Below are positions 56,775 through 56,973 of a stretch of 64,000 nucleotides of DNA, in pieces (positions within the stretch are counted from its first letter, which is position 1; each line of letters opens with the position of its first letter). A model generated the notes under the pieces. That model saw nothing but the letters and a program-made list of their open reading frames with translations, did not search any database and had not been told where the DNA came from. The DNA is from Novosphingobium sp. HII-3 (GTDB taxonomy: Bacteria > Pseudomonadota > Alphaproteobacteria > Sphingomonadales > Sphingomonadaceae), in contig NZ_PPSM01000036.1 in assembly GCF_002916655.1 (NCBI RefSeq), positions 1-64,000 of the forward strand. Reading direction: 5' to 3'. The position numbers and the translations under genes are program-made.

Positions 56775-56957
56775 TTATCCACCTCAAGCCGGCGGCAGCA
56801 TGCACCACATCTTGAGTCATCGTGATTCGGACGCGCTGATATCTTGTGTCGGATTCCTTTTGTTCCCCCGTTGCTGAACAGGTGAATCACGAGGTTTTTC
56901 CGCGAGTCGCGGCTTGACGCAGAGTCCCGGATGAATCACCCTAAAGGCATATCCACA
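56775..56957. promoter_or_regulatory. ccrM upstream region with seven GANTC sites, repeats and two DnaA-box-like 9-mers
   Basis: GANTC sites start at 56814, 56824, 56852, 56884, 56904, 56922 and 56933: seven in 124 bases, against roughly one per 300 expected at this GC content. CGTGATTC (56821) and GAATCACG (56884) are an exact inverted repeat, and TGAATCAC occurs twice as a direct repeat (56883, 56932). TTATCCACC (56775) and ATATCCACA (56949) each differ by one base from the DnaA box TTATCCACA. The cluster ends 37 bases before the ccrM start, so it should be the methylation-sensitive control region of that gene. Confidence 0.7.
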
Positions 56958-56973
56958 GTTTATCGGAGCAGTC

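Follow-up and report, generated by a model that had tools for sequence, protein, structure and literature searches.

A conserved, helically phased array of GANTC sites upstream of ccrM in Sphingomonadales is a probable methylation-sensitive promoter

The window analyzed here, a 64,000-nucleotide stretch of a Novosphingobium sp. HII-3 contig, includes ccrM, which lies between an upstream rnhB (RNase HII) open reading frame (ORF) and a downstream dihydropteroate synthase gene. The ccrM product matches the NF050803 model (E value, 2e-183; 609 bits, below the model's curated cutoff of 830), and its closest named relative by CcrM is Novosphingobium guangzhouense (96% identical). A small ORF of ~54 amino acids (56465 to 56626, minus strand) is divergent from ccrM. 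Among the collected loci, this ORF matches close relatives alone (L085, 61% over 54 amino acids; L001, L086, and L087, each over 24 to 25 amino acids), and it has no match in any NCBIfam family. A search of Rfam across 56400 to 57100 gave no match to an RNA element at an E value of ≤1. The features of the locus, with the basis for each, are as follows.

55536 to 56444, plus strand: rnhB ORF, 5′ neighbor of ccrM (NF000595, 235 bits, residues 109 to 297)
56775 to 56783, plus strand: 5′ DnaA-like box, TTATCCACC (1 mismatch to TTATCCACA)
56807 to 56818, plus strand: element B, ACATCTTGAGTC, with GANTC at 56814; half of a conserved B/D dyad (alignment, genome search)
56824 to 56828, no strand: site C (GATTC), 10 bp past B, found in some of the relatives (counts, alignment)
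56834 to 56845, no strand: element D, degenerate in the window, with its GANTC lost; GACTCAAnATnT in relatives (alignment, consensus)
56850 to 56866, no strand: element E, CGGATTCCTTTTGTTCC, with GANTC at 56852; the consensus of relatives is CGGACTCnTTnnGTTC (alignment)
56867 to 56912, no strand: variable region F, with GANTC at 56884 and 56904, and GAGTCGC (comparison of Sphingomonadales loci)
56914 to 56919, plus strand: presumed −35 of the ccrM promoter, TTGACG (recurrence across ccrM upstream regions)
56922 to 56937, plus strand: core GANTC pair G (56922) and H (56933), 11 bp apart (recurrence with TTGAC)
56949 to 56957, plus strand: 3′ DnaA-like box, ATATCCACA, overlapping the predicted transcription start (1 mismatch to TTATCCACA)
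56974 to 58107, plus strand: ccrM, GANTC adenine methyltransferase, 377 amino acids (ORF; NF050803 match)

The original prediction described seven GANTC sites within 124 bases upstream of ccrM, together with an exact 8-base inverted repeat, a direct repeat, and flanking one-mismatch DnaA boxes. All seven sites were found (56814, 56824, 56852, 56884, 56904, 56922, and 56933), as were the inverted repeat (CGTGATTC at 56821 and GAATCACG at 56884), both copies of the direct repeat (TGAATCAC at 56883 and 56932), and the two boxes (at 56775 and 56949). Comparison with relatives, which keep a different and larger set of elements, indicates that the 8-base repeats are not the informative part of the region.

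GANTC is avoided in the window overall (101 sites, versus a mean of 324 in shuffled sequences). A 381-kb sample of the genome (9% of the total, window included) has 552 sites in 381,005 bases, or 1.45 per kb. The original prediction had proposed a search for similar clusters elsewhere in the genome; none equal to that at ccrM is present in the sampled 9%, where no other 124-bp stretch has more than 3 sites. Dinucleotide shuffles of positions 56776 to 56973 (198 bp) reached seven sites in only 1 of 5,000 trials. We therefore rejected chance clustering, based on the shuffles and the genome sample, and also generic GANTC-rich intergenic DNA, based on the genome sample. The 300 bp upstream of gcrA, two DUF1153 genes, one mucR-type gene, and ctrA in the same genome have 1, 0, 1, 0, and 0 sites, respectively. 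Thus, the cluster is no general mark of such genes.

To compare ccrM upstream regions, we used 132 from Sphingomonadales (80 named loci, the present genome, 29 and then 20 more loci of the same genus, and 2 of the same family). By sequence, 129 of these are distinct, and some of the genomes repeat named ones. A second set, from other alphaproteobacteria, consists of 67 upstream regions, the best scoring of 154 matching genomes in a draw of 190. Counts of sites cover the 300 bp that precede residue 28 of CcrM. As the original prediction required, the cluster is kept in relatives: all 131 Sphingomonadales loci with a full 300 bp have 3 to 13 GANTC sites. The mean is 6.0 for named loci (range, 3 to 10; 79 full-length loci) and 8.7 for the first 29 loci of the genus (range, 5 to 13); the other 20 loci of the genus have 5 to 10 sites, and the 2 same-family loci have 3 and 6. 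In none of the 79 named loci does any other 300-bp segment have more GANTC sites than the ccrM upstream region, which is strictly the richest segment in 75 of these 79 and in 29/29 loci of the genus. The 67 other alphaproteobacterial regions have a mean of 3.97 sites, with at least one in 62 and none in 5.

Alignment revealed an ordered series of elements: A (GAGTC), GCCACACC, B (AnATnTTGAGTC), D (GACTCAAnATnT), E (CGGACTCnTTnnGTTC), F, CTTGACG, G, and H (GACTCAc). GANTC is found at one main column in 104 (A), 102 (B), 104 (D), 82 (E), and 105 (H) of the 129 rows, and the G site is divided between two columns (63 and 31 rows). D repeats B in inverted orientation, usually 20 bp further on. The alignment indicates that GANTC has been lost in the window from A, from D, and from the middle site of region F, such that its seven sites are fewer than those of most of the genus. 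Strict regular expressions identified the full B-D dyad in 25/132 Sphingomonadales loci and the E core in 54/132; both were found in 0/67 other alphaproteobacteria. Parsing of B and D skipped 30 of the 132 loci, including the window, owing to its degenerate D. An exact match to the B motif, ANATNTTGAGTC, is found at ccrM and nowhere else in the genome. The conserved GANTC sites have, in addition, conserved middle bases and flanks (TTGAGTC, GACTCAA, and CGGACTC). This points to a protein that reads the sequence, and methylation is not in itself required to account for it.

The distances between pairs of GANTC sites, taken over 119 distinct patterns, peak at 9 to 11, 18 to 20, 28 to 30, and 38 to 39 bp, and so on. 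For Sphingomonadales, the best period is 9.9 bp, with a mean cosine of 0.64, versus no more than 0.065 in 200 random placements matched in site number and span. Away from the ccrM upstream regions, the 80 named loci contain 112 close GANTC pairs, and these have no such peaks (2 pairs at 9 to 11 bp, 6 at 18 to 20, 9 at 28 to 30, 4 at 13 to 16, and 5 at 23 to 26). Since site patterns are inherited, we also tested single loci for phase. The window's seven sites alone are phased (R = 0.87; P = 0.009 against their own random placements), as are all 12 hand-picked Sphingomonadales loci, window included (P ≤ 0.034). For unpicked Sphingomonadales loci with at least six sites, P was <0.05 in 84 of 96 (median, 0.005), and phase was not significant in the remaining 12. 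In contrast, the phase cosine for the other alphaproteobacteria as a set was 0.12, not above the random maximum of 0.137, and only 3 of 13 of their loci tested singly had P values of <0.05. We concluded that the phased array is a trait of Sphingomonadales. We do not press 9.9 bp as a physical helical repeat, since the spacings are inherited and the indel steps described below are ~10.5 bp.

The position of the upstream elements relative to the −35 falls into discrete classes. In the 98 of 132 loci that could be scored, the distance from E to the −35 is 52 (3 loci), 61 to 64 (71 loci), or 72 to 74 (24 loci), with nothing between; the 34 loci without an E score could hide exceptions. The classes thus differ by steps of ~10.5 bp. 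For D, 95 of 97 loci have distances to the −35 within these three classes, the exceptions being 60 and 112. Eighteen of the 132 loci, 8 of them named Sphingomonas, could be scored by neither E nor D. By contrast, the distance from the −35 to the position of CcrM residue 1 ranges over 46 to 87. A CcrM protein tree (112 rows), made by a quick method and with many weak branches, requires at least 14 changes of length class (available for 98 rows); this number falls to 11 when branches below 80 are collapsed and to 7 when those below 95 are collapsed. Repeated indels of one helical turn imply that the upstream module and the promoter have to lie on a common face of the DNA. This placement is the firmest mechanistic inference that these comparisons suggest.

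Downstream of the module, TTGAC is followed by GANTC within 14 bases in 122/132 Sphingomonadales and 49/67 other alphaproteobacterial loci. In a matched control that kept the real GANTC sites and placed TTGAC at random (200 trials), the means for the two sets were 46.5 and 13.6, and the maxima were 62 and 25. A looser control, using random 280-bp segments elsewhere in the named loci, which are poorer in GANTC, gave 4/1,496. Hence, matching for GANTC shrinks the excess, but the excess remains. In both sets, GANTC most often follows TTGAC at an offset of 3, and a second GANTC most often follows at a spacing of 11. Within the genome sample, ccrM is the single place with the complete TTGAC-GANTC-GANTC arrangement. 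In the window, G and H lie inside the presumed promoter (about −50 to a predicted start). If TTGACG is the −35, G would lie between the −35 and −10, and H would touch the edge of the −10; the presumed −10 (CACCCT, 56937 to 56942) is a poor match. GANTC between the −10 and −35 is described as marking a class of Caulobacter cell cycle promoters that are switched on at 40 to 60 min (PMC4287350).

A TTGAC-N3-GANTC-N6-GANTC core recurs at ccrM in alphaproteobacterial families (L116 to L182), which suggests an ancestral methylation-sensitive ccrM promoter.

In region F, many Erythrobacter-type, Sphingomonas, and Sphingopyxis loci have CtrA-type sites, as GTTAAC half-sites or boxes of the CTAA-N7-TTAACC type. 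Most loci of the same genus as the window have GANTC sites instead, often GCGACTCG...CGAGTCGC, and several loci have both types together (14 of 132 loci could not be parsed). Upstream regions matching seven of the eight CtrA box letters number 32/132, versus 16/660 shuffled sequences. The genome of the window encodes CtrA (423 bits), and the window has no TTAA-N7-TTAA box upstream of the −35, the best match being 5/8. Of 112 rows tallied, 10 could not be scored; one of the two features was present alone in 37 and 34 rows, both were present in 12, and neither was present in 19. The raw counts strongly suggest an exchange of the CtrA box for the array. Because the well-supported independent pairs number only four, this exchange is not established. 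We therefore dropped mutual exclusion as a statistical claim and keep it as an observation. In Novosphingobium, the combined GANTC and GTCGC sites are mostly located where other loci have a CtrA box, which indicates that the CtrA input has probably been lost there. The ccrM upstream region of Sphingomonas yabuuchiae (L075) has no GTTAAC boxes and several extra GANTC sites upstream of the −35, and it resembles a case of independent exchange outside Novosphingobium.

Taken together, the sequence comparisons lead us to favor, as reasonably probable, a reading in which the region is the ccrM promoter and acts as a composite, methylation-sensitive autoregulatory array, arranged on one face of the helix, that couples ccrM to replication. 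Passage of the replication fork would leave every site of the array hemimethylated. Hemimethylation would then alter how RNA polymerase and a regulator bind at the G/H core pair, and how at least one upstream protein binds on the same face, and ccrM would fire. CcrM would in turn methylate the array, closing the promoter, and a requirement for methylation of many sites could make the shutoff sharp or delayed. The sign of the response (full methylation being off) is borrowed by analogy from Caulobacter, and the opposite sign is possible. In Novosphingobium, methylation, perhaps with SciP or GcrA, has probably replaced the CtrA input. The original prediction had suggested a feedback switch from site density. 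A feedback promoter is indeed the best reading, but density alone does not carry it; what is conserved is the order of the sites, their helical phase, and their placement at the −35 and −10. More tentatively, the phased lattice might work as a natural multisite methylation counter, i.e., one cooperative switch reset by replication, that displaced CtrA in Novosphingobium through composite GANTC/SciP-type sites (GCGACTC) whose SciP half-site includes the methylated adenine. We consider this a possibility on the doubtful side.

Among the alternatives, the one that survives best is that the core pair alone matters, i.e., that this is an ordinary methylated promoter of the GcrA-σ70 type and the upstream GANTC sites happen to lie within sites for other proteins. 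What the class has in common is the core (49/67 other alphaproteobacterial loci, none of which has the strict B-D dyad). GcrA is encoded in the genome (PF07750, 129 bits; G000:C28:1778-2416) and is described as promoting the formation of open complexes at promoters that are methylated (PMC7403470). Against this, elements A, B, D, and E are kept across Sphingomonadales and in register. Furthermore, the YGAKTCG context is scarce at the conserved sites: it is found at 37/365 sites in the A-to-D zone, 0/66 in the E zone, 6/103 at G, and 0/101 at H, compared to 209/815 GANTC sites elsewhere in the named loci and 70/451 in the genome sample. It is more common than background only in region F (65/170). 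Of the seven sites upstream of ccrM in the window, just two (56824 and 56904) have this context, and both lie outside the core. A study of Brevundimonas, however, describes no preference for YGAKTCG (PMC7987155), such that the scarcity weakens GcrA as a reader and does no more than that. We consider the core-only explanation unlikely, and GcrA reading all of the sites is weakened by the same flank comparison.

A second domain match to GcrA (L226; G000:C36:192725-192991; 66 bits) has three TGA codons inside and is possibly a broken gcrA copy or part of another gene.

Somewhat less likely still is that a sequence-specific protein reads TGAGTC/CGGACTC, or GTCGC in the case of SciP, with GANTC secondary and methylation hardly mattering. 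Conservation of the flanks and orientation and the single exact genomic match to the B motif are consistent with this. So is the distribution of GTCGC/GCGAC, tallied over the 122 loci with an identified −35: it is present in 45/47 loci that have the array without a CtrA half-site and in 5/14 with both, as opposed to 4/61 without the array (1/39 CtrA-only loci and 3/22 loci with neither). Part of this association is a consequence of GANTC itself. In the genome sample, GTCGC/GCGAC is present in 15.5% of 45-mers, and 22 of 189 GACTC/GAGTC sites are in a GCGACTC/GAGTCGC context. In the window, the GTCGC half-site is at 56906. The genome has two DUF1153 genes (G000:C25:240560 and G000:C14:738861), a family that we take to be SciP, and a MucR-type gene. 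The SciP motif is described as a GCGAC half-site or GCGNC-N5-GNCGC, mostly at −60 to −90, and ccrM is listed among the Caulobacter promoters that bear it (PMC4287350). In 19 of our loci, the half-site is 30 bp before the −35; its spacing and position are unlike those of the published palindrome. At the last F site of most loci, GTCGC and YGAKTCG coincide, such that this site does not distinguish SciP from GcrA. Thus, of the platform for GcrA or SciP suggested in the original prediction, the presence of both genes in the genome (SciP via DUF1153) holds, but the conserved sites mostly lack YGAKTCG, and SciP as the reader of the array is hinted at through the GTCGC/GCGAC half-sites. What stands against a purely sequence-specific reader is that the number of GANTC sites is far above what one motif would need, that all four variants (GAATC, GATTC, GACTC, and GAGTC) are seen in region F, and that the regulated gene is the GANTC methylase itself.

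It is very improbable that DnaA boxes are the main input and that GANTC just marks the region. Between 170 and 60 bases before CcrM residue 28, a perfect TTATCCACA is present near the predicted start in 51/132 Sphingomonadales loci, and a box with one mismatch is present in 14 more (1 and 8, respectively, of 660 shuffled sequences); in the 67 other alphaproteobacteria, there are 3 perfect and 3 one-mismatch boxes (0 and 4 of 335 shuffled sequences). In addition, DnaA motifs at ccrM have been described mainly for alphaproteobacteria without CtrA sites there, a statement not made for Sphingomonadales (Brilli et al., PMC2877005). On the 3′ side, a box is thus conserved in about half of the Sphingomonadales loci, in line with the boxes noted in the original prediction. 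However, 67/132 loci have no box of fewer than two mismatches and nonetheless keep the array. Finally, a chance cluster or functionless inherited sequence, for which we found nothing beyond the higher A+T content of intergenic DNA, is contradicted by the order-wide conservation, phase, register, core, and genome sample, and its probability is negligible.

Promoters of cell cycle genes controlled by methylation are already known; what is new here is the phased multisite layout, the one-turn indels, and the apparent CtrA box exchange. A modeling paper describes Caulobacter ccrM as having GANTC in its promoter, with transcription of the gene confined to hemimethylated DNA and shut off by methylation (PMC2217572). 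The Caulobacter promoter is CtrA activated and hemimethylation dependent and has a SciP motif; the gene is the same, and GANTC is likewise in the promoter. The Sphingomonadales regions differ in having up to 13 GANTC sites, helical phase, and an upstream module, and the window differs in having no CtrA box, with the Caulobacter promoter taken from published descriptions rather than from its sequence. GcrA/CcrM-dependent σ70 promoters similarly have GANTC between the −35 and −10 (ctrA P1 at −29 and podJ P2 at −24 [PMC4287350]), but here there are two core sites 11 bp apart and a phased upstream array, mostly without YGAKTCG. In Sinorhizobium meliloti, ccrM is reported to be bound by CtrA and to go down upon CtrA depletion (PMC4433202). 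CtrA-type boxes are present in region F of many Sphingomonadales, and the window has GANTC/GTCGC instead. In a synthetic memory switch, CcrM methylates GANTC in its own promoter, changing repressor binding (PMC5458116). That switch is an engineered positive-feedback loop with a zinc finger repressor, whereas the ccrM array is natural; methylation of its own promoter is likewise proposed. We found no description of this ccrM array in the parts of the open-license literature on ccrM and GANTC that were available to us. Little is known about CcrM timing outside model species, and the array is a concrete, mutable candidate for it. Moreover, the loci form a natural series in which some promoters have a CtrA box, some have GANTC sites only, and some have both features.

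A study of ctrA describes a Sphingomonas melonis ctrA knockout with no reported negative effect on growth or viability (PMC8116508), such that something else may time ccrM there. The same study reports up to five and six GANTC sites in 300 bp upstream of ctrA in Sphingomonadales and Caulobacterales, respectively (PMC8116508); as at ccrM, many CcrM sites precede a cell cycle gene, but the counts are for ctrA. All of the Sphingomonadales ctrA promoters examined there are reported to have at least one GANTC site (PMC8116508), unlike ctrA in the genome of the window (L253; G000:C25:197861-198532, minus strand), whose upstream 300 bp have no GANTC and contain several TTAA/TTAACC boxes.
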